From Taenia hydatigena (Eukaryota > Platyhelminthes > Cestoda > Cyclophyllidea > Taeniidae), in contig JADWOT020000006.1 in assembly GCA_036345935.2 (NCBI GenBank), forward strand, positions 6,980,519-7,044,518: a stretch of DNA of 64,000 bases, given 5' to 3'. Shown here piece by piece: positions 14,158 through 48,800 of the stretch. The notes under the pieces were generated by a model. The model saw nothing but the letters and a program-made list of their open reading frames with translations. It was not told where the DNA came from and ran no database searches. A program made the position numbers and the translations under genes. Numbering within the stretch: position 1 is the first letter of the stretch; every line of letters starts with the position of its first letter.

Positions 14158-14176
14158 GGGAGGGGAGGGGGAGGGG
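14158..14176 (+). other. G-quadruplex motif
   Basis: GGGAGGGGAGGGGGAGGGG has four G-runs separated by single A residues, an ideal short-loop G-quadruplex pattern on the plus strand, in otherwise AT-rich DNA. Confidence 0.5.
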
Positions 14177-20100: not shown

Positions 20101-21194
20101 GACCAAACCGTAGTTTCATCTGGTCAATAAGATACCACATCTCCCAGACTACTTTTAACGCAATCTATTTTGACTTGATTTGCCGCCGCCATTTATCACA
20201 AAGTGATAGAAAACAGACCGCATACTTGTTATGCAGGACCTAAGTAGGCAACCAAAAAGGTGTCACACTGGTGAAGTACGTGTTAAAAACGCACAAAACT
20301 ATATGAAACCTAAAAAGCTACGGTGCTTTGCGCCGTAAAATCGTACTAAAAGCCTTCTTAAAATACTTGCTTACAAGCTGTTTGTGTTTTTCAGCACCGC
20401 AAAAAGTTACAGAAAGGAGGACAGAACCTACACTAACCACAGGTTCACAGCTCCAACCGTGATACTTCAAAACTGACGCACCTTTAGCACTGCATTATTC
20501 TTTGATGCAATTAGTTCTTGCGCACATAAGGCCTAAAAAGTCTGCCGTGAATAAAATCGAGATGGCTGCTACAAAATCTCGGCATACGGATGGTAGCCTT
20601 GCGAATTGGCTTAGTGTTTTCGAGCCGAACATCATACACAAATCCTTTGTTGTGCCTGCACGAAAGGACAGGGAGACATTTGCTGTTTCGAATCAAGGGA
20701 GCTGGTTCACATTGTCCAGGACTTCATTCACTATAACGGCGGCACGGTCATCTGCCCACACGTAGCCTCCCGACCTCCCTGTGCATCAACAGTAAATCTT
20801 CCTTTCATACCGGTGCACCTTAGTACGACCTAAGGAGAGACTTCAGTTGCAAAATACATCTTTAAAGTAAATATTTCTACCTATTTTCAAGTTGATAATA
20901 CACCACACGTAATTGCAGTCACGTCTGTTAAGAGAACTTTGGGATTCGAAAAAATATTAAGCAGCCATCGTCATCAATGAAGCGTTCTAATTTAAAATAT
21001 TGTTGGACAATGGACAAAAACGATGGTAACATTTCTGGTCAAAATGCTATCAGAGATTGAGAGGGACCGAAAATCATCTCCCCTCTTAGGCTGACATGGG
21101 TAAAATAAGCCATAATCCAGAAATTCAGCACGGAGAAAGCTGGAGTGTCGCTGCTATCAGATGGACTGCTGCAAAGCCAGTGCAAAGTCAGTCG

Positions 21195-21204
21195 GTCACG
21201 TGAC
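21195..21204. promoter_or_regulatory. CLEAR-type E-box palindrome GTCACGTGAC
   Basis: The 10-bp palindrome equals the CLEAR consensus bound by TFEB/MITF-type bHLH-Zip factors and contains a CACGTG E-box. It lies in a GC-rich patch (about 21120-21320) that has no convincing gene. Chance occurrence cannot be excluded. Confidence 0.3.
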
Positions 21205-24200
21205 GGAGGGAACAGGAGACGCCTGCATGGGGGGCACCCTCGCACCCACGCAGCTGACTTGGTGGAGGGGGGGCGAGGTGGGGAGATCTGATGCCGCCTG
21301 TCGCAAAGACAATGACGCATAGCATGCTCGCTTCACTAATTGTCATGTGACTAAAATGCGCCCCACTTGCCTATGGACAAAGTGGAATGGCAGCCAATAC
21401 CTAAAGTGGTCACCGCTTGCCGATTGTTCGTTATGGGCTTCAGAAGCCTCAGTTCGTGTTAAATTCGTTGGGATCAGACCTTCAATTTCGTCGTTATTAG
21501 TCGTGCTAATTTGCAGCTACGCTGTTCTAGCAATGTATCCATCTCAGTTGGGCAGACCCCGTGACATTGGTTAAATTTTGCACTAAGTACAGCGTATATT
21601 CAGTAAGGCAGTAAAATGCTATTGGACGTCATTCAGGTGCAAAAAAAGAAAAAAGTAAATGAGTGAAATCCCCGTTTCGCACTAAAACCGAATCAAATTG
21701 TTGCTAGCAGATCAAACAAGAAATGCTGCTTTGAATGACGGAACCATTTAGTTTGTTGTGATATGTAGGTCGCACAATTGTTGCGTGGCAAATTCAACGA
21801 AAACCATGATATGAAACTAGCAACAGATTTCATTTCTGTGGCTTCCAGGTGCTATTCCATATTAGCGATTTAGGTTTCACGACAAGTAAAGCCTTTGAAA
21901 GGGTGTAAGATGGATAAATGTATATTGTTGAATGAGTCCGTTTACAATCAACCTCATTGCGATAACTCTCGATTTTTGTATTGAACAAGCCATGGAAAAC
22001 TGGCTAGTGTTTATTGAAGGAGTGTCAATGAACCAGCCATTATTCTGACATTGACAAATGAGGTGAGAAGCATCTCGTCGAATTGTGTCGCCACACAAGT
22101 CAGCCCTGAAGCTGTAATGGGGCATAGCAATAAAAGAGCATGACTTATTATTAGCCTACAGAAGGACTAAAAGGCAACAAACACGGAGAAGTACTGTGTC
22201 ATCAAAGTGGTGGTAAAGCCTGCCAAAACTGAAGAGAGCAAGTTGTTAACAGTGCATTTGTGCAAATATAACTCTACTAAATGGCCTCTATCGGTTTCAA
22301 AGGCAGGAGGCTGTGAGGATATCATTGAGAGAGGCTACGGCGCTTACCATGGCGACCCACCTAAGTGAATTTTAAGCATCTGGGAAGTGCAAGTGCTAAA
22401 TGGCATTGATTTTAGCTGCGACTCCTATATGCTTGGGTGTCGCGCCTTTCCAAGACGAAGTGGATTGGAGCAACGTGAATTTCGAGGTTTTAGCACTGAT
22501 GACTAAACGACGTTCTGCTGCAGCAAGCGAATCCTATGCGCGAATTCATAAAACTAAATATACGGGGAGAAGTCTATTTTAATTTCGTAAGACCTAATTT
22601 AACCTGGTCGCGACCGTTGTACCGAACTCGGGATTGAAGTTAGCCAAAAGCCGATGACACTTCAGCTCCTCCACAGTGAGTCTCTTCAGGTTCAGCCTTC
22701 TTAGGTAACTTTTGGGTTTCGAATGCAACCACCCCGAATCTAGCTTTTAGTCATTTGGACCAAAGAAGTAATAAAACATGTCAGTATAACAAAAATAAAT
22801 TATAAATCGCATGCAAAGGGGCTAAGAATCGTCATGACGACAAGAAATTGAAGACCCCCCTGTTATCAAACGCAAGATTGATACAAGTTCCGTTGTAAAA
22901 CACAAAACATTTAAAAGGTACCATTTTTTGAATATCACAACTCCTATTCAATTTAACCTTTAATTAGCTTCCAGATGTGAGTAGTCCGGTGTAGATCTAC
23001 CTACGCACTGTCCCCTCCGCGATCAACTGAGTGGAGGGTTAGCATAGTTTAAACTTGACAGTAATCAATCCATAGCGGGGCAACGCCCTGAATGACTGTT
23101 CAAATGACAGCAGTACACTTCACCGTGTTCCTGATTAGACAAAGAAGTTTGATAATGAATGAGATGAACTGGAAGTTGTGGCATAAATACCGAAGCAATC
23201 ACTTCGCAATCCAAAGTTTAAGCACTGAAATACACTCATTCCACCAACGACCTACGTTGTTTAGCTGAAAATGCATTGAGAATATAAACTATAAATAATA
23301 AAATCTTTTAAAAAGGCATTTAGGCATTTAAAGCACGAGCCAATCTACTACCGATTACAGTGATGTTAAAAATCCATCTATTTAAAAAGTAATAAAGTGT
23401 ATCAGCAAATAAGTACACAGAATAAACACCATTCAGTAAAAAATATTTCCACCAAAAACGTAGACCTAAATGAAATAGCGCTAAGATCCATGCTAAGGAA
23501 AATCGACAAGAATTTCGGTAAAGAGTGGAAGCCTTCTACTATCTGATTAGGCCGTTTACTTCCTTAAATAGCCCTTTACAAACGTAAAGGTTTTAAATCA
23601 ATCCTATAAACTAAACATGGACAAGCAAACTTTATTTGTAAAGCGGTAAAGCATCTAAGACATGTGATGAGGAGGCCTCAACCAACCGACAATGGCTGAA
23701 ACGGAGGGATCAAGACGGTGGTAGATTTTGTTAACCAGTTCCGCTTCCACAATCATCTAAATACATGAAGAGTGAATTACTTTACGACATTTTGACGCAC
23801 AGCATGCAGATACAGTGTTTTTTATTCCACCCGATAGGCAGTAGCAACTGAATTAGTTGAATCAGGCAAAGTGATGCACAGTAATCAAAAGATTTTCCGT
23901 AAGTAGTGGATCCGTGTTCTTCAGAATTACCACAGGGAGATGATTGCATCCTTGGGAAAAAAATAAGCATCTGTGAAACGCATTCTTTTTTGAAGACTTC
24001 TGTGTGGTAATTTACCCACCACAGGGCTGCTCCATTGACCTCTCCCCAAACACGTGATCGTGCCATTTTGGTGATCTGAAAATAAAGCTGCCCTTACACA
24101 CGCTGTTAAGCCACGCGCCAACAGTCAGTCCGCACCATGTCACTTTCCCCCTGCATGCATTGTTTGCAGGCTAGATTGGCTTAGAGCTTTGCAAACGCCT

Positions 24201-27200
24201 CAGCTAAGCTGTTAATCTCCCCGACCTCCCACCTCTTATCAACGATTTCCAAATGCCTCATGGGTCTTGGAGCTAGAGTGGACTCTGAAGTTTCCCTCTG
24301 ATTGTGACTAAGCACACATTGCGCATTCACACTTGGAAGATATCACGGTAGTTAAAGATTGCTTAACGTGGCACACACACACACTACCAAAAAATACTCA
24401 TAATCACCCCTCAGAACAAACCACAAAAAACTACACTTTGAACAAGCAAAGGTTGACTTTGCTTGCATTATCTCCAAAACACGCTACCCACCACATTTGA
24501 CCTGTCATCCGATTCATTTGATGACCTTCATATGCACAGGATATCACACCACCCCTTGACCCCGAACTGAAAACCGTCCGTAAGGATGAATCCACCTTCA
24601 GGTTAAATGCAAATTGCCTCGATAATGCGCTCCTAGAAGCACATGAAAACGACATTTTCGTAGTTCACAAACTTCGCGTCTGCAGCACAACACTGACGAA
24701 TCTCACCCTCTTCCTCCGAGCGAAAATCGAACCGCATGCGTCCCAAATTAACCCATCCTCTATAAGCGTGTCCTTCTTGTTCATCGAGAGCCTTGCATTA
24801 AAGCGAATGACGGGTTAGTACGATCCGCAGCCAACAACGGAGGGGGTAGCATTCCAATTAGAACGGTTCAGTCACCCAAACCGTGGAACCACATGCAGGC
24901 ATTATCAGCCTGACACCGACGAGCATTTGTTCGTGTGCACGGCGTGGTTTGAGATTGTTAATTTGGAGTGAGGTAAAAGTGCCGTGGAAAGCACCCAATG
25001 CCACAGACTGTCCCATCCTTCTTTCAAAGGAGCGTGAATGTCACCATATATTGATTGGCGTTTGAAGTCACCTGCATGACACGCTCAGCGATTTTCCCCT
25101 CAGGAGAAGTAACTTCTCAGTTTGAACAACACACCCCTTCGATTAGCCAAATTTTGGAATGTTTGGAGGAAACAACTTCTCTTGCCCATGAGCCGCATTT
25201 TGACATTGAGGATACCCTGGCACGAAATGAAGGCTCACTGCTTCATCTGCCTACCTGAAGTGATTTCGCGTAAAAGCTACATTAACGGCCACTTGAGCGC
25301 TTCTGCCTACAGACCATCACGATCCCATCCCTACATTCTAACCACGTTCATGTCAATTGCAAGCAGGTTAACGTCCACTCAATTCCTTTGTATTTCCCGT
25401 CGCCTTTGTGCCACATGCACACCATTGACATCACCCGATTTCTTCAAGCCGAAAATACACATTCGTTGTTAACTACGGGTTCTTGTTTTTGTGAGCATCC
25501 TTCGAGGCACATCCCAACCCACTATCACACTGTGGACAGATCATTTGTCTCGTAAAATTAACCCTGAAGGTGGAAGCAAAGCCTCCACATCAGTCTTCTG
25601 GGGTCTACTGTGCTAATGGGTGGCGTTTTCAAGTTTCTGCGTCGATAAGATCCTCGTAAACAGACAACGTCAAATCGCACCTCATCGTTAGGCTTAGTTT
25701 GCATGCCAACAACACTGTAATGCCGCTTGCAACGCCTCTTCATCGGATGATGGTAATATCTTCATCTCAACTGAGTGTCAATGACACAAATCCCATGAGC
25801 ATGACGCGACCGCAGCGTGGAATCAACCACTGCAGCAGCTACCACATCGGCTCCCTCATTTCATGCAACTACTTTATGAGGACCTCACACCCCTACACAC
25901 CTCCATTCTTCATGAAAGCGAATGTGAATAATGACCAGTGGTGATAGTAATGCCAAATCATGGCATGATGACTGGGCAGTACAATGAGATGACATGAGGC
26001 TCAATCACGGAGTATTCCATAAGCCTCGGTAGAATTTCAGCAAAATCCACGTGCAGCAGATGTTCATGGAGTTTCCTGTGGTTTTCAGTGAGCCTCGGTA
26101 CAATGACTTGTTGTAACTTGTGAGCACTCAAACAACTGCATGCCATTGTTTACTTGCATGCGTTGTCAAACAGTGACATGCGTCAGTCTACCATCGGCAC
26201 GGTATTCCACTCCGCTCCCGATTGTACTGCACCCCTCTAAACAGAAACACTCACGTTGTGCTACGGCCATGAAGCCAGCCTGATGGATGTGGTTCGCTCT
26301 CTTCCACCCTACCAGACGCGACCGACCCGGTTGAGAGGCTGCGGAAGCCAGCTTCCTCACATTCAATTGCGTCCCAACTGGTGAGGGCGAGGTGCTGCAA
26401 CAATTTGAGTGTGTTGAGTGGTGAATCACCACAAGGTGATGCATGCAGTTCAGGAGGACGTTTCGTTATTTACACTTGATAGCAATGCTGAATCGCGTGA
26501 CCAACTGTCATGTGGTGGGAAATGACCTTTCTTTTTTAATTTTGCACCTCGAACCATCCACTACCTACCCACACTTCTGAGCCACGTGCCACTCCGTCCT
26601 TGGAAGTCGATGTGCGTGTGCGTGTGTGTGGGTGCCATGAACTGCAGACGCAACACTCCATTTGCAATATGTAAGGGTGCGAAATGCCGAGCCATATTTT
26701 CAACGTCTTACTGATTTCCTCGTTAAACTGGTCAGATTGAGCCCGATGTACGCCAAGTGGTTGAGGTGCGTTTCTTAATCCCAATAAATGGGAGATTTCG
26801 GTGCTTCACTTACTCTCTGCAAGTGTTCTACAACGCAAGATGCTTTTAAGGCAAGCCTAGTGGTGCATGATGACGTCTACAACGTGCGTTGCTTCCTCAC
26901 CTTGTCGCTCACACTGCACAGGTGGGAAGCTGTTTTGCCTCCATGCTCGCAGCGCATGCAACTTACCAGTCTCAATTTAATCGTGCCTTAGCATTCTCTT
27001 ACACATGGCGTGCTTACATTACTTTTTCTCTCCCAAGCATTGGCAGCAAGTTGGGTCAATGACTCCCTAACACTCTAACAGGAATTCCCATATTCACCGC
27101 AATTGCAAATGGAAAACGTGGCCATTAGAACCGACTGCGCTTACTACAGTTCACGTTCCCATGTAGACAGAGACACGTCAACTCCTACGTCTCCGAGTCA

Positions 27201-27213
27201 TTGCTATAATTGC

Positions 27214-27234
27214 TGTTGTTGTTGTTGTTGTTGT
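27214..27234 (+). repeat. GTT microsatellite, left arm
   Basis: About seven tandem GTT/TGT units. The mirror copy in the right arm (42865-42885) has the same length. Confidence 0.9.
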
Positions 27235-27553
27235 AACTTTGCATCCGCACCAGCAAGCTCATGGAGGACACATTCGACGCACCTCATCCCATTCAAACAT
27301 TCAGCCAAACCATCCCACGAATATTGTTCACCTTTGAGTCACATTAGAGTACCCACCAACTGCTGTAAAATGCACAGAAAGGGGAAAGGGCAGACGCCTC
27401 TACCTTAACCTCGATAATGGCAGCTGGCATTTCGTCTTCTGTCCTGATTCCTAATCGATGGGTGGGTTGTGTGTGCCGGTCCAGCCCGCATTTTGAATAC
27501 GATGTCATGAATCCAGACACCATCGGTGACGTGATATGCAGTAAGTGCCGAAG

Positions 27554-27580
27554 CACACACACACACACACACACACACAC
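27554..27580 (+). repeat. CA microsatellite, left arm
   Basis: A 27-bp uninterrupted CA tract. Its mirror in the right arm (42519-42545) has exactly the same length, which is notable because such tracts usually change length quickly. Confidence 0.95.
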
Positions 27581-30500
27581 GTGACAGTCACAAAATTGAA
27601 AGACGGTGTCAGTGGTTCCCGTCTGCGCCGGTTGGATGTGGATCAGCCAGAGGTCTAGTGTCATGGCAACAATGCAGGAGGCATGCGTCACAATGCTGGG
27701 TAAGCAAGTCGTCACATCCATTCATTGTCATCTAATTTGACGTGCTGTGCATTTGGCTAGCAGCGGATCACATGCCGCAATTCGCTCCCGATTATTGCTA
27801 GTTGAGGCCTCTCCCCACTTCATGCTCATCAAAGTAGCCTGAACAGCCAGCCAGTAATCACTCAGCGACGCAGTCATCAACTTCTCTTCCAAGTCATCAG
27901 CGTTGGTCTTGGTCCAATACAGTCAAGTTGATGTGTCTTTCCCACAGTTGGGTAAAATCGGGAACCAAACAACCCACTTGCACATGTGTATTGTGGACAC
28001 GATGTCTGCGACTCGCAAACAAATCACCACAACCAATTGGTGTCTAGGAGTGCTTACTTGAGTCCCATGCTCCCAGTCACCTCGAGGCAATGCGATGCAT
28101 CATGCGTCACCACCGTGATACTACTCACTCGGTTACGAACCGACTACCACGTGTGTGGTAAATAAATTTTACCAAAACTGATTTCACCGAAAGTACTCTG
28201 TGGAGTTGTTAGTTGAGGCAGTGACACTGAACTCGTCCTGGAGCGAGGTGAGGTGCACCATCAACTGTCACAAATCAAAGGCACGACGGTTCTTACTACA
28301 TGAACCTTCATATCACCGAATGGGATGAGGCACTTTCCACCACCAACGAATGCTACTTCCCCTGTTGAGTGTGCATGCAGACAAGTTCGTGTCAAACTTC
28401 ACTGCGATTTGTTGTTGTCTCTAAGCTCCCGCAGTCAGTTGAGGCACCAGTTATGCAGCATATTCGTAAAGCACTTAAACGGCGACCGTAGCTCAGACCA
28501 TTCTTGCTAAAGTCGGCCAAGGCACCCACGCTGACACTCACTTTGGCGGTGGTTGCAACAATAGCTTGGTATTAGGATGAATGACAAAAGCGAATAAGGT
28601 GGTTGTTGAAGCAGTGTTTCAGAAAGAGCCACAAGAGATAGAGGGAGGAGGAGAGGGAGGGAAGTTGCACCATGGCATTGTTTAGAAGTTGAGGAGTCCA
28701 GAATAGACAGTGATACTTGCACATGCTGTGTGACACCATTGGTCGTGCGTCTGTTGGTGACAGCCCCCAATGCCGTGATTCCCATCTCATCACTACAGTG
28801 GTCGTTCCTGTGAGCATTCAGTGCGTGGAACGTTAACAAATCTCTACACCACACCAGACGTGGTCCTAGCCACTGGGCTTCGGAAAACACATCCGACGTC
28901 AGACATCGTCTTGTCCGCACATCAGAGTCTGAAGAGTCTGCTCGCAACTTGACACAAAAATGCAAAAGGTAGTCGATGAACGGTGGTGGAAAAAGCCGCA
29001 CCGAGTTTGCGAAAGAAGATGTAGATGTCATCATAGCACAGTAGTCACACCTACAATGCACCATTACCACAGCAGAACAAAGACAGATTGATTTAGTGAT
29101 GGAGGATGAAATAAAGCACCAACATTCGACGAAATGGCGATAACACTCGCTGTGAGGTGTTTTGAATTGTCGCCATCGCCGTCATGTGCTGCCATAACGT
29201 GGGTATTAGTTGAGAGGGTCCACATCATCACATCATATCTGTGCCTGTCCTATGCACACCAACAAACCTCCCAATCCCACTGTAATTTCACCTCGAAAGC
29301 GTACTCTCGTTGACAAGGCGCTTGTCAACACGCGTGTTCCCCTCTTCGCGTCAAATTTCAACACGGTGCAACTACACTCTGTGATTCGTTCGGACTCAAA
29401 GTTGTGCACAGTGGACTCGTCGTCTCGCGAGCAATAAAGCAGACCCAAGGAGACGCCGAACTGCTGGTATGAACATGACAAATTCGTTTTCATCGCCCAT
29501 CCCCATCACCACCTGTCACCTCACTTAACCGCACGCAAATGGGTCGGCGTGCGAATGCGACATTTTGGCAGGTTTCGTGGGGCCACTGAGGATGAGGTGC
29601 TAGCAAAGGAATGCGTCGATGGGGCAAGTCAGTGGTGTGGCTAAGACGTGCACAATCCAAAGGGGCAGTGGTGGTCATGTGCTGCCAGAATCGAGGTGCA
29701 AGCCAATGGAGGGTGTGCTCGTGAATCATTGGTCGCGATGTGGACGCATCCTCGCTGCCATCAAGATGAATTTTGAAGCCGCAGAATGTGATGGCTTGGG
29801 AGCCACAACCGTGCCAAACTGAGAGACGTTATATTAATGAAGCAGAACTTCGTCTTAGCTAGTCCAAATCTCAAGACGTCAATGCCAATGCCAGTTTGGT
29901 TGCAACTCAAGTGGAGCTAATTTACCACCTCTGTGTAACCATTGCTAAACACTCAACTTTTAAATTCAATTTAAAATGCATGTGCTAAAGCTTTACTTCT
30001 AGCAAGCCTTAGAAAGCACAAGTTTTGCCAGGATGCTTGGCGTCGTAGGCGGGAGGGATGCGACTGCTCGCTAGAAACAGAACACAGATTCATCCAAGTG
30101 ACATCAAGAGCTACTCTTGACTTCCGCGTCCCAATCAAAGGGGATCGTGGTTTGTCGACACCAACAAGTAATGCACTTTCCCTTTGCAGTGAACTCCAGT
30201 TGGGCTTTCGGTGTATACTGATTGGTGTAACCGATGGTGCTTGGCTCGCATGCTTCAATTTGATTGCATTCATCTTTCTGGCGCATGAGGGACCGAACGG
30301 AGAAGTATCCAGGAGCTGTCCTTGAATGTACCAAGTGTGCTTGCCAGTGAGGTCGCGCAGAAGGCACACAACCATATTGGTTAGTGGCCAGCAGTAGAGA
30401 GGACTCTGCGGCTCAAAGAAAGTAGAACACGTTTCCACAAATGAAAATGACGAACACTAAAAGTAGACTGCCTCCATTATTTTGTTTCATGCAGATTTTA

Positions 30501-32130
30501 GATGAACTGTAAGCTTTGCCCACTCCTTAAACAGACCAAATCAGCTTATTTCCCCTACGGCGTCATCCTCAAACCGATGTCTGCGAGAAGCTAGCACAGT
30601 CTCCAGTGCTTTTGAAATCAACCAAACACCACAAGGAGTGTGGCCTCTCCTGAACCGACCTCGTGGATTCCCGTGATCTGGTGAGGCGAAATCTCGAGCT
30701 GGCTGCAGTCGCATGTGGTAGTCTACGCATTGCAAAACTTCTCCATGAGTATTGTGCATTGCCACAAACCACCACCAACATCTCAAACACGGGTCCCTGA
30801 TGTGAGGATGGAGTTGCAGTACTAACATAGGATTTTGGCGCAATGGGTGGGTGTGAACTACTCAGCTTCGAAATGAGGCTTGCTAACTCAACACCGCACC
30901 TCCTAGTCCGACTGAGAGCGATTCAGGTAAGAAGCACCTGATTTGCAAAGCCATTCTTACACGAAGAGATGATTGGTTTTGCTTCTATACCCTTAACCTT
31001 CGGCCGGTAGTTAGACTATTCTACTCTCCGTGATTGTTCCATTAATCGAGCCGCCCAATTACTCCAAGGTTACACTTTTGTGTCTTCAATGAGTGCTACC
31101 TTCAAAGTTGAAAACCAACAAGAATTGCTGAGACCGATTTGATCCATCAAAGTTGTCGCAGTATTGTCAAGGTGGCGATCATGCTTCGAGATGGAGAGAA
31201 TGCGCTGAACATTGACGGGATTGGGAGAGTGCACGTCCGACTAGCTGCGTTGACGAATTGTCCACTATCGTTCATGTGGTAGGTAAGACCCTGTTATAGG
31301 GAGAGGCAGAGGTCGCACATTGCGCAAAACAGGAGCGTTTGGGCTGTCTTCGAAGCACGTTATAAAAGCACGCAAATGTCGACACGGATTTTTGATCTGC
31401 ACAATGCGTCGTTTGTGTCGACGCCACTTCGAAGTCTCTGCCACGGTGAACACGCGTCGAAAGAGGAAGTTGCGTACGAGGAGGTTGAAGGAAGGACTGC
31501 ATCTGGGCGATCCTCATACACTGACAATTTCTGAGTGAGTAATAGGGAGGACGAAGAGGTGGGGAGAATGAATTAGTTCCACTGAAGATTCTTAAGTGAA
31601 AACAAGTCAACCAAAGGCGACCAAGTCAACCCTCAAAACAGTCCCATGAAAACGGCAATCACACTTTTCTAAGAATAAACCTCGCAACATCAGTGTTTGC
31701 ACAAAGTAAAACCCACGACAATGAAGTCCGACTCCTCAAGGCTCAAACTAATAAATGATAGTGCTGCTGCCATAGCATTTACCGACCAAATTGACTCCAG
31801 GGTTGGCATTTGTACTTCACTGGTGGCGCAAACGTTCTGCCACTTTTGCCTACTTTTGGCGTACGGATGAAGAGAACGTCACTTCTGTGACTTCTTGAAG
31901 TCCTACCATCCAGGTGCTCATGCAATTTGTTATGACCCAACATGGGCCATTGGACCAAGTCTGTGGCGTTGCAATCGATGAGTGTTTGATAGGAGGATGG
32001 GTTAGTTAGTCGAAGGTGGCCGATTTCCAACAGAATGGTAGAAAATCATCGAGATCTCGAGTGCTTTGCTTTAGTACTGCCAAGAGAGTAGAAGAGCGGA
32101 CAATTCGTGAACTCCAGTGGTCATTCAAAT

Positions 32131-35100: not shown

Positions 35101-37968
35101 CATTGCTGAAATTTGTTAAGAGGCGAGAACGGAGAAACAGAGGAGCCCTGGCGTTTCGCAGGGCACTAAGAAGCACTTATTTCAAGCAACTTTACCGTTT
35201 ACCTTGTATCTGTTCATTTAAGTTACATTTTCAAGCAATTCGCAGTGCTAATGTGGAATATTTTGCGGTATGAAAGTTCAGTGGAGCAGATCTTAGCCAC
35301 GTCTCATCGATTGGGATCATTCTGATTGGCTCCTCTAACACATTGGTCACGCTTGTTACCGCATTTAAATTCAAAAGGTGCAACTGACCCTTGAGGGGGA
35401 CGAGGAAAGGCCGCGGATCTCGAAGCCTTTTCACAACGGCTAAAGACTCTTATTGAATTAGACTTAACTCAAATGAGCATCCTATTTTATAACAATTGTT
35501 GTTTTTTGTTCACTCATGACATATCAGTTCCTAGTTAATTTACAAATACAAATTTTCTTATAACAGAGTGGTACAAATGATGCATTTTAACGAGATTTAC
35601 TATGATTAGAAAATCATTTCTGTACAGGACGAGATTCGTGTGGCTTTGAAGTTTGGAGATATCAACTGAGGACCACTGTTACCATCTTGCGGAGTGGTGG
35701 CGGCTTTTGATTGGCCGTTGATGTTCCACCTTCTCGTGACTCGGGCTGCCCATTTCAAGTGGTTTGCCTTAAGCTATGCACAGTTGAAAAGTGAACCAAG
35801 TATACGCGATTTTTTATTTAACAGCATTTTGCGATTTTTAATTACAAAAAGCCTTTTTTGCACTGAGTTTTTGGAATGAAATGTGCATCACTGACCAACG
35901 AGTTTCGTCTCATGAAATAAAAGCTAAAATTTATCCGAGCAGCAATTGAGGCATAAATCATTCTAAATGAAATAATTCACGATTCGCCCATGATGCAGAA
36001 ATTGTCAGCTATGGTTTGCTTGTTATCTAGGTGAGTGTTTCACTGACACATGCAAGTGTTTGAGCGATCGTAAGTTTGGGGATCATGATGTGGCAATCGC
36101 GTGGGCCCGAGACCCGGACAAATTTTACGCCCCATTTTGCACTCCACCTCCAGCCCACGGAGTCAAGTGGGTAAACAGCCAAAGGGACATTTGCCACAAT
36201 TTGGTTTATTGATTTTGTGTTGTTTTCAAGTGAACTAATCAATCGAAGTGTCACCTTTAGGCTCTAGAAGAAATTTTGTATCTGAAAATGCGGTTTAAGC
36301 AACTGTGAATTTCAGCGGTTGTGAATATGCCATTTGAAAAGCAGAATTGTGAAAGGGCGTGTCATTATCTGCCTTTGTTGTTCGAAAGATTCCTCATGTG
36401 AGGAGATTTTATTGATATGGAATTGATGTGTTTATAGTAGTTCACGCCTCCCTTTTGAGTGTCGACTTCTGATTCTGTTTTTGAGATAAAGTATATTGCA
36501 TTAATTCCAAGTGGTGTGGAATTTTTGGCTTTGTAAGACTTGATTAAGATCCTTCAACTGAAATTCTGTTAAAATCCAGTCGTGGACTTAAGATTTTTCT
36601 TTTCCTGTTAATTTATTATGAATTAAAATTCGAAACGGTAATTGCATTCCTGGCAAAACACAGATTATTAGTTTTCGAGGTCACTGCCTTGGAATCACAT
36701 GCTCTTAAAAAATTCCATTTTTCCAATGAAATAATAAATTTTTTCCTTTCGACAACTTTTTAGTAAACGTTTTAATCATACAACACTTGCCATAGTGTTT
36801 GGGAGAGGTGTCATGCACCAGCTTATTGCCCTACCGGTCACTGAGGCGAACCGAAAACACATCATTAGCCCTGTGACAGATTACTGCCCATGCAATCTCC
36901 TGACGATGAATGGCAGTGTTTTGAACATAAACTTATTCCCCCGTTCGACGAGGGCGAATAACCTTAAGTAATGCTTCTTCAATAAATAAAATTCCCCTTC
37001 TCTGTGGCCCAGGCAGCAATCCCGACATTGTCGTATACATTAGAGTTAGATCCAGACCAATCAGCATGTACTCCACCTACCAAGTCAAGCGACTCTTTGG
37101 CTGGCTGGTTCACAATCAGCACCATGACAGCAGCTATGGCGCCCATTCAAGGTCACTTTTGGCCCAACTATGTCGTGTCCATAAACAACCATGTTTACGC
37201 ATTTTCGGTGATTTTATGCATGTTAACGACATTTTGCGCAGCAAAACCCAACCCGTTTGTTCTCTTTGCTGTGCTTTTGTGCAAAGCATTTATTTTAATG
37301 GTGTATTAGGCTAAATTTGGTTCTGCAAGCCCCAACTAGGGCATGTTTTTTTGTCTTTCCTTCCTATGTTCGTACATACAAAGGCATTTCTTGATTAAGC
37401 TATGCTGTTCCATCAATTTGTGCTTTGTGGATGGGAAGTCGTATAATAGTTGAACGCCTCTGTGAGGAGGTTCCTTTGCGGAGCGATTTTTGAGATTGTA
37501 GACTTACGTGTATCTGTCCACCATCTCGAGATTCGCACAGCATGATGATGCCAGGTAATTGCCCCTTATCTCAGTCTTTCTGTAAGTTTATAGAGTTTAC
37601 TATTGCAATTTTATGATAAAACCATGTTTTGACTATTCATTTATCAAAAATTATCCTCTTGGGGTAATTTTCTTAAAATTATTGCATTACTGACAGACCA
37701 GAATTCTTTACATTCATATTTTACTTCACTAAACCAAAATTTTATCTTTTCGTTCAAGGCTAATGGAACACGTAAAGACTGAGATAAATCCAAAGTTATT
37801 CGTCAAGAGCACAGCAGTATTTAAAAAGGCCTAAATGACAGTTTTTGTAAGAGGTTTCCCTGGCACACTTAGTTGTGAAAATGTCAAATAATATTTTTAT
37901 TAAAAGTGTAAACGACATTCAATCAGGATTGGTCAACGAAATGCAAGGAGGAGTGCAAGCAAACTACA
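32131..37968. other. Single-copy spacer of the giant inverted repeat
   Basis: About 5.8 kb of AT-rich sequence resembling the general background rather than the arms. I find no supported gene. The longest frames (33660-33319 minus, 113 codons; 37004-37309 plus, 101 codons, hydrophobic towards its end) have no recognised motif. A stretch at about 34150-34280 (plus) reads as a protein-like segment ending in a stop but lacks splice partners. If the arms recombine with each other, this spacer would be inverted. Confidence 0.6.
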
Positions 37969-40900
37969 ATTTGAATGGCCACTAAAGTTCACGAATTGCC
38001 CGCTCTTCTACTCTCTTGGCAGTACTAAAGCAAAGCACTCGAGATCTCGATGATTTTCTACCATTCTGTTGGAAATCGGCCACCTTCGACTAACTAACCC
38101 ATCCTCCTATCAAACACTCATCGATTGCAACGCCACAGACTTGGTCCAATGGCCCATGTTGGGTCATAACAAATTGCATGAGCACCTGGATGGTAGGACT
38201 TCAAGAAGTCACAGAAGTGACGTTCTCTTCATCCGTACGCCAAAAGTAGGCAAAAGTGGCAGAACGTTTGCGCCACCAGTGAAGTACAAATGCCAACCCT
38301 GGAGTCAATTTGGTCGGTAAATGCTATGGCAGCAGCACTATCATTTATTAGTTTGAGCCTTGAGGAGTCGGACTTCATTGTCGTGGGTTTTACTTTGTGC
38401 AAACACTGATGTTGCGAGGTTTATTCTTAGAAAAGTGTGATTGCCGTTTTCATGGGACTGTTTTGAGGGTTGACTTGGTCGCCTTTGGTTGACTTGTTTT
38501 CACTTAAGAATCTTCAGTGGAACTAATTCATTCTCCCCACCTCTTCGTCCTCCCTATTACTCACTCAGAAATTGTCAGTGTATGAGGATCGCCCAGATGC
38601 AGTCCTTCCTTCAACCTCCTCGTACGCAACTTCCTCTTTCGACGCGTGTTCACCGTGGCAGAGACTTCGAAGTGGCGTCGACACAAACGACGCATTGTGC
38701 AGATCAAAAATCCGTGTCGACATTTGCGTGCTTTTATAACGTGCTTCGAAGACAGCCCAAACGCTCCTGTTTTGCGCAATGTGCGACCTCTGCCTCTCCC
38801 TATAACAGGGTCTTACCTACCACATGAACGATAGTGGACAATTCGTCAACGCAGCTAGTCGGACGTGCACTCTCCCAATCCCGTCAATGTTCAGCGCATT
38901 CTCTCCATCTCGAAGCATGATCGCCACCTTGACAATACTGCGACAACTTTGATGGATCAAATCGGTCTCAGCAATTCTTGTTGGTTTTCAACTTTGAAGG
39001 TAGCACTCATTGAAGACACAAAAGTGTAACCTTGGAGTAATTGGGCGGCTCGATTAATGGAACAATCACGGAGAGTAGAATAGTCTAACTACCGGCCGAA
39101 GGTTAAGGGTATAGAAGCAAAACCAATCATCTCTTCGTGTAAGAATGGCTTTGCAAATCAGGTGCTTCTTACCTGAATCGCTCTCAGTCGGACTAGGAGG
39201 TGCGGTGTTGAGTTAGCAAGCCTCATTTCGAAGCTGAGTAGTTCACACCCACCCATTGCGCCAAAATCCTATGTTAGTACTGCAACTCCATCCTCACATC
39301 AGGGACCCGTGTTTGAGATGTTGGTGGTGGTTTGTGGCAATGCACAATACTCATGGAGAAGTTTTGCAATGCGTAGACTACCACATGCGACTGCAGCCAG
39401 CTCGAGATTTCGCCTCACCAGATCACGGGAATCCACGAGGTCGGTTCAGGAGAGGCCACACTCCTTGTGGTGTTTGGTTGATTTCAAAAGCACTGGAGAC
39501 TGTGCTAGCTTCTCGCAGACATCGGTTTGAGGATGACGCCGTAGGGGAAATAAGCTGATTTGGTCTGTTTAAGGAGTGGGCAAAGCTTACAGTTCATCTA
39601 AAATCTGCATGAAACAAAATAATGGAGGCAGTCTACTTTTAGTGTTCGTCATTTTCATTTGTGGAAACGTGTTCTACTTTCTTTGAGCCGCAGAGTCCTC
39701 TCTACTGCTGGCCACTAACCAATATGGTTGTGTGCCTTCTGCGCGACCTCACTGGCAAGCACACTTGGTACATTCAAGGACAGCTCCTGGATACTTCTCC
39801 GTTCGGTCCCTCATGCGCCAGAAAGATGAATGCAATCAAATTGAAGCATGCGAGCCAAGCACCATCGGTTACACCAATCAGTATACACCGAAAGCCCAAC
39901 TGGAGTTCACTGCAAAGGGAAAGTGCATTACTTGTTGGTGTCGACAAACCACGATCCCCTTTGATTGGGACGCGGAAGTCAAGAGTAGCTCTTGATGTCA
40001 CTTGGATGAATCTGTGTTCTGTTTCTAGCGAGCAGTCGCATCCCTCCCGCCTACGACGCCAAGCATCCTGGCAAAACTTGTGCTTTCTAAGGCTTGCTAG
40101 AAGTAAAGCTTTAGCACATGCATTTTAAATTGAATTTAAAAGTTGAGTGTTTAGCAATGGTTACACAGAGGTGGTAAATTAGCTCCACTTGAGTTGCAAC
40201 CAAACTGGCATTGGCATTGACGTCTTGAGATTTGGACTAGCTAAGACGAAGTTCTGCTTCATTAATATAACGTCTCTCAGTTTGGCACGGTTGTGGCTCC
40301 CAAGCCATCACATTCTGCGGCTTCAAAATTCATCTTGATGGCAGCGAGGATGCGTCCACATCGCGACCAATGATTCACGAGCACACCCTCCATTGGCTTG
40401 CACCTCGATTCTGGCAGCACATGACCACCACTGCCCCTTTGGATTGTGCACGTCTTAGCCACACCACTGACTTGCCCCATCGACGCATTCCTTTGCTAGC
40501 ACCTCATCCTCAGTGGCCCCACGAAACCTGCCAAAATGTCGCATTCGCACGCCGACCCATTTGCGTGCGGATAAGTGAGGTGACAGGTGGTGATGGGGAT
40601 GGGCGATGAAAACGAATTTGTCATGTTCATACCAGCAGTTCGGCGTCTCCTTGGGTCTGCTTTATTGCTCGCGAGACGACGAGTCCACTGTGCACAACTT
40701 TGAGTCCGAACGAATCACAGAGTGTAGTTGCACCGTGTTGAAATTTGACGCGAAGAGGGGAACACGCGTGTTGACAAGCGCCTTGTCAACGAGAGTACGC
40801 TTTCGAGGTGAAATTACAGTGGGATTGGGAGGTTTGTTGGTGTGCATAGGACAGGCACAGATATGATGTGATGATGTGGACCCTCTCAACTAATACCCAC

Positions 40901-42518
40901 GTTATGGCAGCACATGACGGCGATGGCGACAATTCAAAACACCTCACAGCGAGTGTTATCGCCATTTCGTCGAATGTTGGTGCTTTATTTCATCCTCCAT
41001 CACTAAATCAATCTGTCTTTGTTCTGCTGTGGTAATGGTGCATTGTAGGTGTGACTACTGTGCTATGATGACATCTACATCTTCTTTCGCAAACTCGGTG
41101 CGGCTTTTTCCACCACCGTTCATCGACTACCTTTTGCATTTTTGTGTCAAGTTGCGAGCAGACTCTTCAGACTCTGATGTGCGGACAAGACGATGTCTGA
41201 CGTCGGATGTGTTTTCCGAAGCCCAGTGGCTAGGACCACGTCTGGTGTGGTGTAGAGATTTGTTAACGTTCCACGCACTGAATGCTCACAGGAACGACCA
41301 CTGTAGTGATGAGATGGGAATCACGGCATTGGGGGCTGTCACCAACAGACGCACGACCAATGGTGTCACACAGCATGTGCAAGTATCACTGTCTATTCTG
41401 GACTCCTCAACTTCTAAACAATGCCATGGTGCAACTTCCCTCCCTCTCCTCCTCCCTCTATCTCTTGTGGCTCTTTCTGAAACACTGCTTCAACAACCAC
41501 CTTATTCGCTTTTGTCATTCATCCTAATACCAAGCTATTGTTGCAACCACCGCCAAAGTGAGTGTCAGCGTGGGTGCCTTGGCCGACTTTAGCAAGAATG
41601 GTCTGAGCTACGGTCGCCGTTTAAGTGCTTTACGAATATGCTGCATAACTGGTGCCTCAACTGACTGCGGGAGCTTAGAGACAACAACAAATCGCAGTGA
41701 AGTTTGACACGAACTTGTCTGCATGCACACTCAACAGGGGAAGTAGCATTCGTTGGTGGTGGAAAGTGCCTCATCCCATTCGGTGATATGAAGGTTCATG
41801 TAGTAAGAACCGTCGTGCCTTTGATTTGTGACAGTTGATGGTGCACCTCACCTCGCTCCAGGACGAGTTCAGTGTCACTGCCTCAACTAACAACTCCACA
41901 GAGTACTTTCGGTGAAATCAGTTTTGGTAAAATTTATTTACCACACACGTGGTAGTCGGTTCGTAACCGAGTGAGTAGTATCACGGTGGTGACGCATGAT
42001 GCATCGCATTGCCTCGAGGTGACTGGGAGCATGGGACTCAAGTAAGCACTCCTAGACACCAATTGGTTGTGGTGATTTGTTTGCGAGTCGCAGACATCGT
42101 GTCCACAATACACATGTGCAAGTGGGTTGTTTGGTTCCCGATTTTACCCAACTGTGGGAAAGACACATCAACTTGACTGTATTGGACCAAGACCAACGCT
42201 GATGACTTGGAAGAGAAGTCGATGACTGCGTCGCTGAGTGATTACTGGCTGGCTGTTCAGGCTACTTTGATGAGCATGAAGTGGGGAGAGGCCTCAACTA
42301 GCAATAATCGGGAGCGAATTGCGGCATGTGATCCGCTGCTAGCCAAATGCACAGCACGTCAAATTAGATGACAATGAATGGATGTGACGACTTGCTTACC
42401 CAGCATTGTGACGCATGCCTCCTGCATTGTTGCCATGACACTAGACCTCTGGCTGATCCACATCCAACCGGCGCAGACGGGAACCACTGACACCGTCTTT
42501 CAATTTTGTGACTGTCAC

Positions 42519-42545
42519 GTGTGTGTGTGTGTGTGTGTGTGTGTG
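42519..42545 (+). repeat. GT microsatellite, right arm
   Basis: The mirror of the 27-bp CA tract at 27554-27580, identical in length. Confidence 0.95.
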
Positions 42546-42864
42546 CTTCGGCACTTACTGCATATCACGTCACCGATGGTGTCTGGATTCATGACATCGT
42601 ATTCAAAATGCGGGCTGGACCGGCACACACAACCCACCCATCGATTAGGAATCAGGACAGAAGACGAAATGCCAGCTGCCATTATCGAGGTTAAGGTAGA
42701 GGCGTCTGCCCTTTCCCCTTTCTGTGCATTTTACAGCAGTTGGTGGGTACTCTAATGTGACTCAAAGGTGAACAATATTCGTGGGATGGTTTGGCTGAAT
42801 GTTTGAATGGGATGAGGTGCGTCGAATGTGTCCTCCATGAGCTTGCTGGTGCGGATGCAAAGTT

Positions 42865-42885
42865 ACAACAACAACAACAACAACA
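42865..42885 (+). repeat. ACA/CAA microsatellite, right arm
   Basis: The mirror of the GTT tract at 27214-27234, with the same number of units. Confidence 0.9.
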
Positions 42886-45800
42886 GCAATTATAGCAATG
42901 ACTCGGAGACGTAGGAGTTGACGTGTCTCTGTCTACATGGGAACGTGAACTGTAGTAAGCGCAGTCGGTTCTAATGGCCACGTTTTCCATTTGCAATTGC
43001 GGTGAATATGGGAATTCCTGTTAGAGTGTTAGGGAGTCATTGACCCAACTTGCTGCCAATGCTTGGGAGAGAAAAAGTAATGTAAGCACGCCATGTGTAA
43101 GAGAATGCTAAGGCACGATTAAATTGAGACTGGTAAGTTGCATGCGCTGCGAGCATGGAGGCAAAACAGCTTCCCACCTGTGCAGTGTGAGCGACAAGGT
43201 GAGGAAGCAACGCACGTTGTAGACGTCATCATGCACCACTAGGCTTGCCTTAAAAGCATCTTGCGTTGTAGAACACTTGCAGAGAGTAAGTGAAGCACCG
43301 AAATCTCCCATTTATTGGGATTAAGAAACGCACCTCAACCACTTGGCGTACATCGGGCTCAATCTGACCAGTTTAACGAGGAAATCAGTAAGACGTTGAA
43401 AATATGGCTCGGCATTTCGCACCCTTACATATTGCAAATGGAGTGTTGCGTCTGCAGTTCATGGCACCCACACACACGCACACGCACATCGACTTCCAAG
43501 GACGGAGTGGCACGTGGCTCAGAAGTGTGGGTAGGTAGTGGATGGTTCGAGGTGCAAAATTAAAAAAGAAAGGTCATTTCCCACCACATGACAGTTGGTC
43601 ACGCGATTCAGCATTGCTATCAAGTGTCAATAACGAAACGTCCTCCTGAACTGCATGCATCACCTTGTGGTGATTCACCACTCAACACACTCAAATTGTT
43701 GCAGCACCTCGCCCTCACCAGTTGGGACGCAATTGAATGTGAGGAAGCTGGCTTCCGCAGCCTCTCAACCGGGTCGGTCGCGTCTGGTAGGGTGGAAGAG
43801 AGCGAACCACATCCATCAGGCTGGCTTCATGGCCGTAGCACAACGTGAGTGTTTCTGTTTAGAGGGGTGCAGTACAATCGGGAGCGGAGTGGAATACCGT
43901 GCCGATGGTAGACTGACGCATGTCACTGTTTGACAACGCATGCAAGTAAACAATGGCATGCAGTTGTTTGAGTGCTCACAAGTTACAACAAGTCATTGTA
44001 CCGAGACTCACTGAAAACCACAGGAAACTCCATGAACATCTGCTGCACGTGGATTTTGCTGAAATTCTACCGAGGCTTATGGAATACTCCGTGATTGAGC
44101 CTCATGTCATCTCATTGTACTGCCCAGTCATCATGCCATGATTTGGCATTACTATCACCACTGGTCATTATTCACATTCGCTTTCATGAAGAATGGAGGT
44201 GTGTAGGGGTGTGAGGTCCTCATAAAGTAGTTGCATGAAATGAGGGAGCCGATGTGGTAGCTGCTGCAGTGGTTGATTCCACGCTGCGGTCGCGTCATGC
44301 TCATGGGATTTGTGTCATTGACACTCAGTTGAGATGAAGATATTACCATCATCCGATGAAGAGGCGTTGCAAGCGGCATTACAGTGTTGTTGGCATGCAA
44401 ACTAAGCCTAACGATGAGGTGCGATTTGACGTTGTCTGTTTACGAGGATCTTATCGACGCAGAAACTTGAAAACGCCACCCATTAGCACAGTAGACCCCA
44501 GAAGACTGATGTGGAGGCTTTGCTTCCACCTTCAGGGTTAATTTTACGAGACAAATGATCTGTCCACAGTGTGATAGTGGGTTGGGATGTGCCTCGAAGG
44601 ATGCTCACAAAAACAAGAACCCGTAGTTAACAACGAATGTGTATTTTGGCTTGAAGAAATCGGGTGATGTCAATGGTGTGCATGTGGCACAAAGGCGACG
44701 GGAAATACAAAGGAATTGAGTGGACGTTAACCTGCTTGCAATTGACATGAACGTGGTTAGAATGTAGGGATGGGATCGTGATGGTCTGTAGGCAGAAGCG
44801 CTCAAGTGGCCGTTAATGTAGCTTTTACGCGAAATCACTTCAGGTAGGCAGATGAAGCAGTGAGCCTTCATTTCGTGCCAGGGTATCCTCAATGTCAAAA
44901 TGCGGCTCATGGGCAAGAGAAGTTGTTTCCTCCAAACATTCCAAAATTTGGCTAATCGAAGGGGTGTGTTGTTCAAACTGAGAAGTTACTTCTCCTGAGG
45001 GGAAAATCGCTGAGCGTGTCATGCAGGTGACTTCAAACGCCAATCAATATATGGTGACATTCACGCTCCTTTGAAAGAAGGATGGGACAGTCTGTGGCAT
45101 TGGGTGCTTTCCACGGCACTTTTACCTCACTCCAAATTAACAATCTCAAACCACGCCGTGCACACGAACAAATGCTCGTCGGTGTCAGGCTGATAATGCC
45201 TGCATGTGGTTCCACGGTTTGGGTGACTGAACCGTTCTAATTGGAATGCTACCCCCTCCGTTGTTGGCTGCGGATCGTACTAACCCGTCATTCGCTTTAA
45301 TGCAAGGCTCTCGATGAACAAGAAGGACACGCTTATAGAGGATGGGTTAATTTGGGACGCATGCGGTTCGATTTTCGCTCGGAGGAAGAGGGTGAGATTC
45401 GTCAGTGTTGTGCTGCAGACGCGAAGTTTGTGAACTACGAAAATGTCGTTTTCATGTGCTTCTAGGAGCGCATTATCGAGGCAATTTGCATTTAACCTGA
45501 AGGTGGATTCATCCTTACGGACGGTTTTCAGTTCGGGGTCAAGGGGTGGTGTGATATCCTGTGCATATGAAGGTCATCAAATGAATCGGATGACAGGTCA
45601 AATGTGGTGGGTAGCGTGTTTTGGAGATAATGCAAGCAAAGTCAACCTTTGCTTGTTCAAAGTGTAGTTTTTTGTGGGTTGTTCTGAGGGGTGATTATGA
45701 GTATTTTTTGGTAGTGTGTGTGTGTGCCACGTTAAGCAATCTTTAACTACCGTGATATCTTCCAAGTGTGAATGCGCAATGTGTGCTTAGTCACAATCAG

Positions 45801-48800
45801 AGGGAAACTTCAGAGTCCACTCTAGCTCCAAGACCCATGAGGCATTTGGAAATCGTTGATAAGAGGTGGGAGGTCGGGGAGATTAACAGCTTAGCTGAGG
45901 CGTTTGCAAAGCTCTAAGCCAATCTAGCCTGCAAACAATGCATGCAGGGGGAAAGTGACATGGTGCGGACTGACTGTTGGCGCGTGGCTTAACAGCGTGT
46001 GTAAGGGCAGCTTTATTTTCAGATCACCAAAATGGCACGATCACGTGTTTGGAGAGAGGTCAATGGAGCAGCCCTGTGGTGGGTAAATTACCACACAGAA
46101 GTCTTCAAAAAAGAATGCGTTTCACAGATGCTTATTTTTTTCCCAAGGATGCAATCATCTCCCTGTGGTAATTCTGAAGAACACGGATCCACTACTTACG
46201 GAAAATCTTTTGATTAATGTGCATCACTTTGCCTGATTCAACTAATTCAGTTGCTACTGCCTATCGGGTGGAATAAAAAACACTGTATCTGCATGCTGTG
46301 CGTCAAAATGTCGTAAAGTAATTCACTCTTCATGTATTTAGATGATTGTGGAAGCGGAACTGGTTAACAAAATCTACCACCGTCTTGATCCCTCCGTTTC
46401 AGCCATTGTCGGTTGGTTGAGGCCTCCTTATCACATGTCTTAGTTGCTTTACCGCTTTAGAAGCTTCAATGAGTTTGCTACAACTTGAATGCATGACTTT
46501 CCCAGTATTTTTGTTTTGAATTTAAGATATTTTGACAGTTTTTCGAAGGCGTAGACGAAGTCAAACACTTACAAGACATGCGTGTACATTTATGTGATAG
46601 CATTTTAATATTATGAAACGAACGGTATTGAACTTTAATTTGCCTCTTTTTTGAAACTAAATTATTTTTGCGTTAGCATCGAATTTTTAATAAAGAAAGA
46701 TACAAATTACTCTTAGGGAAATGGTCGGCTAGTTTTTTGAGACGTTCTTGAGATGATGCATTTCTTTAGCAAACACCGAGGGTAGTAAATGAACTGTTTT
46801 ATTATCTGCTGCCATTTGGTATATCAGCCAATGCGGCAGGCGCGGAATCATTATAGGCTGTAGGCGAAATTAGGCAAGCGCTAGATCTAAAATTTTCATA
46901 GTCGTAAGTGCTCACGCTGTCGGAAATTTAGGTGAGAACGCAGCGCCGTCAAAGTGTTAAATCTCAGTGCCATTTTAAAGCTCGTTGAGTAATATGGCCT
47001 ATTGATGCTTTCTGGTGTTTGAGAAAAGAAATGCTGTCCATTCTCGGGATTCTAATTTGAATGAGAAATGGAACTCATTGGGCAGTTTTATTGGCTCTGT
47101 AAATCACTGTTCGTGGCCCACAATTGCATGCATATGGTGGGTCATGGCGACGCTTTATAGTCTCATTGTCAATCCATTCGTTCTATCATTTTTTTGCATT
47201 AAAGCGATGCATAATTTCGCTCTGAACGCATGTGGTTCGCATTTGCGAACAATATAAACAAGCATCTTAAAAAAGAGCTGTGCAAATGCTGGGAAGGTCT
47301 TCCCAATGGGCCTAGGTATCTTTGAATAAACGACTGTTGCTTTTCGGCAGTTAGTAATAGTAGTGGTGAGGAAGGCATAGTTTGCCAATTCTTTGCACTA
47401 TGTGCTGCGCATTCATTTATAAGAGCATCTGGATTCAACTGAACGGTTGAGTGAGAATGTGGCATAAAATGTTAATTTCAAAAAATGTTTTTGGGCCTGC
47501 AAAACAAACAATCATTTTCTTTAATCATGTACCACTAATGTGAGGCTGCACTTTTAAGGTTCTTGAGGAGCAAATAAACCTGGACTATTTAATCGTTTTT
47601 TTTGAAAACCAGCATTCCAGAGTCGAGGCTGTGCGTTTCTACTGAGGTGTATACAACCCCAAAAAACGTTCCCATTATGACGTCTCTGAAGTTTTTATTA
47701 GAAACCTTCTTTGCACCACACTGTTGCTTGTCTTACGGTTAGCTAACGTTTCGTGGTGATATTATCTGATTGTGTTAGCATTTCATTTTCGATCCGAGGT
47801 CAGAGTCGACGCAATTCGTGTATTAAGCATGCTCAACGGAGCACGCAGCGCTTTGGACGGTGCTCCTAATTTAGCCACTAGAGGCCTCCGCTCCAAAGTC
47901 TTCTTCTTTTAGAGCCTTCTAGTTGGAACCTCAATTGGTAAGCGACAGACGCCTACCCCCATGTCCGTAGTCACGTATTAGCAGGTAAAAGTATCGCGCA
48001 AACGATAAACAGTATTTATTAAGGTACCAATTTATTATATTCAAATGAAGGGAAAATATGGCGTGCTTTGGATAGATGGGGAGGGATAATTTTGTAAAGA
48101 TCTACTTAGTTTTTAACGTTTCAATTTAAAAATCTCTGTGTGAATACGCAAATCACGCAAATAACTTTGCATTTCGGCCCTGAACTGCCCTTAGATGTCT
48201 TGGGAGAAGTTTTCATTGAGTGGTCAATTGGTATTTCAGTTAGAGTATTGGTAAAGAAAACTAACGGTGACCTACTAGGAAGCTACTCATACCAGGGTAG
48301 TTAATCGGCATGACGTTTCGTTGCTCCCTTGTCAGCATTGGCGATTTATGTTTATGTATACTCATGGAGTGGTTAAGTACGGCCACTAAGATGGAACATT
48401 GAGAAGCCCTTGAGGTGATAACTAACGGTATGTTTGCGTGATGATTTTAGTTTATTTTGGTTTGTTTTTGGAATTAAAATCGGCTTCAATCGTGGTACTT
48501 TTTCTCGACTTAAAACAGGCCAACCTTCAATGATTTACTTGGTCGACCGGGTTGAGTTATGAACCTTCGACAACTTGCCGCCTCAAGGGGTGAACATTTT
48601 GAGTTCTTAGACAAAAACTTAGTGCTAGGGGGCTGGTAATCCAGTACTACTGTGAGATCACAAGTGTGCGACTAATTTGACGCTTTATCACTTAGGGACG
48701 GGTTAAGTAATGTTCTTGTTGGGATGTTAAGCTAAATTAAGTCTACAGCTTGTGCTTGCGACATCGATATAGCCTAACACATGGATTGCACCGCTAATGC

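Follow-up and report, generated by a model that had tools for sequence, protein, structure and literature searches.

A probably polymorphic large palindrome in the genome of Taenia hydatigena with signs of arm-to-arm gene conversion

Is a near-perfect inverted repeat in the T. hydatigena assembly a structure of the chromosome, and if so, how do its arms stay alike? The window analyzed here (64,000 bases) comprises positions 1 to 64000 of a gap-bounded contig of 66,000 bases on scaffold C6 (C6:6980519-7046518), which is flanked by runs of N. Self-comparison of the window places the left arm at 23636-32130 on the plus strand (8495 bp), with 99.82% identity to the reverse complement of the right arm at 37969-46462 on the minus strand (8494 bp). 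The match is far above chance (blastn, E = 0). Between the arms lies a spacer at 32131-37968 (5838 bp, GC 0.396), and a 3-kb probe from it (33500-36500) matched itself and one inverted piece of 127 bp at 77%, inside the spacer. An earlier note on this DNA had described 8.49-kb arms around a 5.84-kb spacer, differing by 11 substitutions and one indel. The inverted repeat and the single indel are confirmed, with slightly shifted limits, and substitutions number 13 from 23639 on. Over the full arms, global alignment gives 14 substitutions and a 1-bp indel at 25451/44647. These differences are concentrated at the arm ends, with three at 23638, 23654, and 23669, at most 34 bp from the outer edge, and four within 32100-32121 at the inner end. 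The palindrome is shown in the assembly as given, and we read it as a real and probably polymorphic inverted duplication of the nuclear genome.

Two features go beyond the earlier note. One is a smaller inverted repeat at 384-914 and 3489-4041; the other is that almost all of the window is present a second time on the same scaffold. The entire 66,000-base contig except 32282-38041 recurs in inverted orientation at C6:8197541-8257801, 1.2 Mb away, within 128 kb of N-free sequence. The second copy holds the same palindrome with the same outer arm boundaries and 222 bp of spacer remaining. The missing stretch (5760 bp) takes in 5687 bp of the spacer plus the innermost 73 bp of the right arm; its junction carries a 2-bp microhomology, so we take it to have been deleted from the second copy.

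As the palindrome occurs in both copies, it does not look like a single joining error. That the assembly folded back on itself or wrongly joined two haplotypes, with no such structure in the chromosome, is very improbable: the scaffold does contain an apparent haplotig, but the two copies share their outer arm boundaries despite differing in variants and in 5.76 kb at the centre, and the window arms are separated by 5.8 kb of unique sequence. A fold-back of the scaffold on the megabase scale was rejected, with probes at 6.90 and 7.10 Mb matching only themselves. Six further 1-kb probes had no match in the pieces compared, a result weakened by indel drift and by the lack of a mirror piece for two of the six (L016 and L021). 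The worry about an assembly artefact voiced in the earlier note seems not to fit the palindrome itself and is in part apt for its 66-kb contig, probably a leftover haplotig between N gaps.

The window is most likely an unpurged second haplotype, since its contig minus 5.76 kb recurs within N-free sequence with 0-1% SNPs per bin. The whole contig is contained in a longer sequence at allelic identity and ends at gaps. The 146 SNPs between the copies comprise 103 transitions and 43 transversions, like ordinary polymorphism. Judged by these sequence comparisons, the two copies would be alleles. Alternatively, C6 could carry a true inverted segmental duplication of 66 kb or longer, with its copies 1.2 Mb apart and four paralogous arms converting preferentially within each locus. 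We consider this unlikely, though deserving of attention, as both copies lie on one scaffold in opposite orientation. Ends of segmental duplications are also frequent contig break points. Against a duplication, the homology reaches exactly both N-bounded contig ends and is contained in a longer N-free sequence, as in a haplotig, and the round length of 66,000 bases suggests a scaffolding cut. A 1-kb arm probe run against the 306-Mb genome, which gave at least two pairs of arms and one 73% fragment, also speaks against it. With the window contig probably a haplotig, counting copies on this scaffold may give numbers that are too high.

Comparison of the two copies bears on how the arms stay alike. 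The part shared by all four arms (23636-32057) contains 19 variable sites, whose counts rest on the assembly sequence and on the comparability of the two copies. At seven of them both arms of one copy are alike and unlike both arms of the other copy; these comprise five SNPs, a 1-bp indel, and an 18-bp CA expansion. The CA microsatellite (27554-27580 on the plus strand of the left arm) has equal length in both window arms, while each arm of the second copy carries 18 bp more. Left and right arms are distinct in both copies at four sites, and six are singletons. At the remaining two, position 24420 and the indel at 25451 (plus strand), the arm assignment is swapped between the copies; these could be phase errors, or may reflect a rare inversion as in the human Y palindrome P6. 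The small palindrome, with a left arm at 384-914 (plus strand) and a right arm at 3489-4041 (minus strand, 22 bp longer, 94.6% identity, GC 0.499 in each), has 11 variable sites, 10 SNPs and one indel, of which two are arm-concordant and copy-specific.

Inverted arms of over 99% identity around a unique spacer, with arm-shared variants that differ between the copies (7/19 and 2/11), are what a gene-converting large palindrome presents. The 7/19 pattern suggests arm-to-arm gene conversion, which is favoured because each of the seven sites would otherwise need the identical change twice. Polishing or consensus mixing could also have evened out differences between the two arms of a contig. Under conversion, the arms would stay near-identical through intrachromosomal exchange, with repair presumably templated by the mirror arm. 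Gene conversion had been raised before as a possibility, and it is now supported by the recurrence of this palindrome in a second stretch of the assembly, where it has variants of its own and a spacer of another length.

The arms might instead be alike through very recent duplication. Consistent with this, arm-to-arm substitutions are few (0.16% in the window, 0.07% in the second copy), and SNP density between the copies is equally low in the right flank (0.02-0.16%). However, the seven sites are arm-concordant yet different between copies, and the copies diverge more in the left flank (0.28-0.68% in four bins, 4042-23635) than the arms do from each other. The GC difference described below would also be slow to arise. 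As the palindrome is present in both copies, it is older than their split, and youth of the duplication is an improbable account of the likeness.

GC-biased conversion would raise the GC content of the arms above that of flanks and spacer. The large arms have a GC of 0.476, the flanks 0.417-0.420, and the spacer 0.396 (500-bp blocks; arm vs flank p = 6e-7 with 16 and 74 blocks, arm vs spacer p = 2e-5). None of 1060 overlapping 8495-bp windows from 190 kb of other sequence reaches the arm value. Arm GC is thus raised relative to the flanks, but the first 0.4 kb inward from the outer end of either arm still has 0.38-0.42, so that the rise and the arm boundary do not quite coincide. GC bias in the conversion is probable, and we infer that this bias would account for the GC difference. 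Taken together, we put at about 0.72 the probability that the large palindrome is real and polymorphic, homogenised by conversion that is probably GC-biased, with its other haplotype at C6:8.20-8.26 Mb lacking the centre.

The 128 kb of C6 around the second copy contains three more palindromes (553 bp, 5.06 kb, and 1.15 kb). Their arms are GC-richer than the intervening and surrounding sequence, in keeping with GC-biased conversion, though the GC of the smallest is unexceptional, being reached by 84 of 1852 windows. Palindrome frequency was gauged on a small control, 70 kb from C1 and C2 plus about 64 kb from elsewhere on C6. Among the inverted pairs listed, the best in 50 kb of C1 reached 80% identity, 20 kb of C2 gave none above 85%, and the C6 pieces gave none above 71%. 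Counting against GC bias, direct repeats can be GC-rich too: an 86% pair on C1 (GC 0.514/0.529) and a 185-bp pair on C6 at 95% (GC 0.535/0.568), each with equally GC-rich sequence between its copies. An open frame showing a codon signal is present in the 1.15-kb palindrome and in the segment of the 5-kb one that overlaps it, and their high GC may therefore be due to coding. The frame in the 1.15-kb palindrome, which may be antizyme-like, matched no Pfam family and had one chance-level match in the PDB. As a tentative reading, held at somewhat less than even odds, C6 at about 8.2-8.3 Mb would hold several clustered palindromes that arose independently and are partly nested. Conversion between arms would have homogenised them and driven their GC up, with no large gene families involved, and GC-rich islands in this genome would be the marks of existing or former palindromes.

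No gene was found in the large arms. The 150 frames scanned, of 299 in the window and with 31 in the left arm, matched 11 families; E was below 0.001 for prefoldin (2e-6) and Spec3 (1e-4) only, the matching frames not being specified, and a weaker match was to NeA_P2, a plant-virus polyprotein family (0.022). When six arm frames were rescanned singly, one sub-threshold match appeared (TagF_N, 0.016), and among the frames scanned no domain at E < 0.001 is attributable to the arms. A codon signal was absent from eight arm frames, by a measure that also missed one of the five exons on which it was trained and scored. Among 10 frames taken from C6 pieces nearby, five matched gene families. As the large arms yielded no gene, a selected function is not required. 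Searches for other elements led to the rejection of a phage relative (25122-28000 had no match in the phage collection), a known RNA family (none at gathering scores in the window), and a tRNA (none found with the bacterial setting).

Could the arms stem from a single mobile element or provirus that inserted twice, in opposite orientations? A length near 8.5 kb and a base composition that differs from the flanks would suit one, but neither arm region holds direct or inverted repeats of 30 bp or more, including the direct repeats of an LTR element or provirus. Nor do the 11 families speak for one, with only prefoldin and Spec3 below 0.001, and the matches of the 1-kb arm probe listed in 306 Mb, a lower bound, were the four arms and the 73% fragment. 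On these repeat, frame, and probe searches a paired insertion was rejected and is scarcely credible.

If a converting palindrome is the correct reading, this locus offers an example where one assembly allows the two alleles to be set side by side, including a microsatellite expansion shared by the arms and a spacer deletion. Should C6 not be a sex chromosome, GC-biased palindrome conversion would extend beyond sex chromosomes. If the cluster reading also holds, both alleles from one individual would directly show conversion, inversion, and spacer loss.

Four known systems invite comparison. Palindromes in an invertebrate are shared with the springtail Folsomia candida, where 11 palindromic blocks, gene blocks with a wide Ks range, are described; unlike our reading, its authors hold that concerted evolution does not explain the blocks (PMC5490193). 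The willow W carries two adjacent palindromes with arms of about 20 kb, and arm-concordant differences from a relative were taken as conversion, as here; unlike the present palindrome, they lie in the sex-determining region of a plant, alongside genes and LTR elements, and the words "GC content" are absent from the text of that paper (PMC7023750). Primate X palindromes undergo GC-biased gene conversion, with arms over 99% identical and spacers unstable between species; median GC in human is 46.3% in arms and 41.2% in flanks, similar to our inverted arms of over 99% identity with 47.6% vs 42%. Their arms may be longer than 1 Mb, and genes are present in 10 of 12, unlike the 8.5-kb arms here with no gene found and a conversion bias that is unpolarised (PMC8981503). 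In human Y palindrome P6, variants turn alike in both arms over multi-kilobase tracts, with rare inversions, much like our arm-concordant variants and swapped sites that may be an inversion; that study followed 378 Y chromosomes of known genealogy, compared with two copies here (PMC3723533). The conversion mechanism is already known from sex-chromosome palindromes, and the likeness suggests that the arms of the T. hydatigena palindrome overwrite each other in the same way.

The giant inverted repeat that the earlier note had described in the window was recovered nearly as claimed, with arms at 23636-32130 and 37969-46462 around a spacer of 5838 bp. The single 1-bp indel between the arms also held, though there are 14 substitutions rather than 11. 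The differences cluster at the arm ends (23638, 23654 and 23669; 32100, 32114, 32115 and 32121). A diverged (76.6%) 128-bp inverted pair, 34873-35000 and 36868-36994, is found inside the spacer.

The genome comprises 306 Mb in 1354 contigs. The window (C6:6980519-7044518) begins directly after a run of 5650 N (C6:6974869-6980518) and its contig stops at base 66,000, followed by 100 N; the unlike gap lengths perhaps mean that one gap was size-estimated. Open frames of the window matched prefoldin and Spec3, and five of ten open frames scanned from nearby pieces of the same scaffold, C6, had Pfam families (MTPAP-like, ICMT, HMG-box, ATP_bind_1 and Frag1). Together these matches suggest an animal genome. 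Searched against the whole genome, a 1-kb arm probe found at least four arms and one 73% fragment. By alignment the 66-kb contig, minus 32282-38041, is present again, inverted, at C6:8257801-8197541, in sequence that is N-free from 8185001 to 8313000. Probes from C6 at 6.90 Mb and 7.10 Mb matched only themselves. Per bin, SNP density between the copies is 0.00-1.04%; it is higher at the left (0.28-0.68% in 4042-23635) and low at the right (0.02-0.16% past 46462), with 103 transitions and 43 transversions. As the contig is contained up to both gap-bounded ends and the divergence is allele-like, the best reading from sequence is an unpurged haplotig, with a true inverted duplication as a less likely rival. 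Arm bases 26137-26496 have a 73% relative at C6:8268326-8268700 (pieces L005 and L012; GC 0.51), some 10 kb beyond the second copy; it may be what is left of an older arm copy.

In the second copy the large palindrome has arms at C6:8217084-8225522 and C6:8225745-8234182, separated by 222 bp. Among the 5760 bp missing there (32282-38041) are the innermost 73 bp of the right arm, and 2 bp of microhomology mark the junction. Sequence matching the arm is hardly to be expected from an insertion in the window copy, which would make a deletion in the second copy the simpler reading. A perfect 12-bp palindrome of the right arm (38039-38050) has its centre within a few bases of the junction.

Aligning the four arms gave 19 variable sites in their shared part, 23636-32057. 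At seven (25939, 27553, 28457, 28496, 29019, 30597 and 30772, with 27553 an 18-bp CA expansion and 28457 an indel) both arms are alike within each copy while the copies differ. Because the palindrome is present in both copies, this class requires seven double mutations or transfer between the arms. Left and right are distinct in both copies at four sites (23638, 23669, 24045 and 26471). These are confined to the outermost 2.8 kb, and the arm-shared sites lie inward of 25.9 kb, with 0.5 kb of overlap, as expected if conversion is weaker close to the outer edge. Two sites, 24420 and 25451 (an indel), swap arms between copies, which may reflect inversion, ectopic exchange or phase error. The other six sites are singletons, of which the window's left arm has five (23654, 23881, 26093, 27879 and 29528) and the second copy's right arm one (28974). 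Near the inner edge, the two left arms agree at the four sites of 32100-32121, where the second copy has lost its right arm. In the sequence as assembled, this pattern shows copying between arms. A small palindrome at 384-914 and 3489-4041 (531/553 bp, 94.6% identity) has 11 variable sites: two arm-shared, six left/right (five SNPs and a 22-bp indel) and three singletons.

The large arms are also rich in GC, at 0.476 vs 0.417-0.420 in the flanks and 0.396 in the spacer (500-bp blocks, p = 6e-7 and p = 2e-5, respectively). The step coincides with the arms' inner edges; on the outer side it comes roughly 0.4 kb into each arm. None of 1060 overlapping arm-length windows from 190 kb of other sequence reached the arm value (maximum 0.447). 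Beyond base composition, the arms are short of TA and have an excess of CA/TG. Observed/expected TA is 0.54 in 23636-32130 and 0.45 in 384-914 (flank and C1, a control sequence of the same genome, 0.74); CA/TG is 1.39 and 1.55 (flank 1.14, C1 1.24).

Two further palindromes lie on C6. One of 5.06 kb, C6:8275927-8280976 and 8293953-8299009 (L013:927-5976, L035:953-6009; 99.6% identity), lies 18 kb past the end of the second copy; its arms have a GC of 0.489 (0.472 without the nested repeat) vs 0.413-0.442 around and between them, and none of 1402 control windows (5050 bp each) reached the arm value. The other, of 1.15 kb (C6:8280039-8281182 and 8285497-8286648; 98.5%), overlaps it, leaving about 0.95 kb in three copies, and has a GC of 0.555 vs 0.43-0.45 (0 of 1792 windows of 1144 bp). 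The small palindrome, at 0.499 vs 0.391 between its arms, adds little to the GC case since 84 of 1852 control windows reach its value. In 50 kb of C1, diverged inverted repeats (68-80%) have a GC of 0.34-0.48. GC-rich direct repeats were one 86% pair in 50 kb of C1 and a 185-bp pair on C6.

The GC of the large arms does not seem to come from coding sequence, as a Pfam search of their frames found no convincing domain and codon scores of eight frames were low (-0.20 to 0.09). Four of five training exons scored 0.20-0.27 and the fifth -0.03, a contrast flattered by scoring the training set on itself. The 1.15-kb palindrome carries identical 192-codon open frames, L013:5358-5933 (+) and L025:746-1321 (-), with a strong codon signal (0.334) outside the training set. 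The frame may be antizyme-like, but it matched no family in Pfam.

The likeliest mechanism starts with a break or a stalled fork in one arm. Repair would then use the mirror arm, on either that chromatid or its sister, as template and copy tracts of kilobases, with G/C favoured by mismatch repair; with time the arms would remain alike and grow richer in GC. We infer the route, repair from the mirror arm; the G/C preference is suggested by analogy with primate X and human Y palindromes (PMC8981503, PMC3723533). For the springtail Folsomia, palindromes are reported with concerted evolution unsupported (PMC5490193). The large palindrome would work like the sex-chromosome palindromes of mammals and willow (PMC7023750), a kind of system already known. 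Unusual here are the largest palindrome's lack of a recognised gene, the clustering of palindromes and an assembly that likely contains both alleles.
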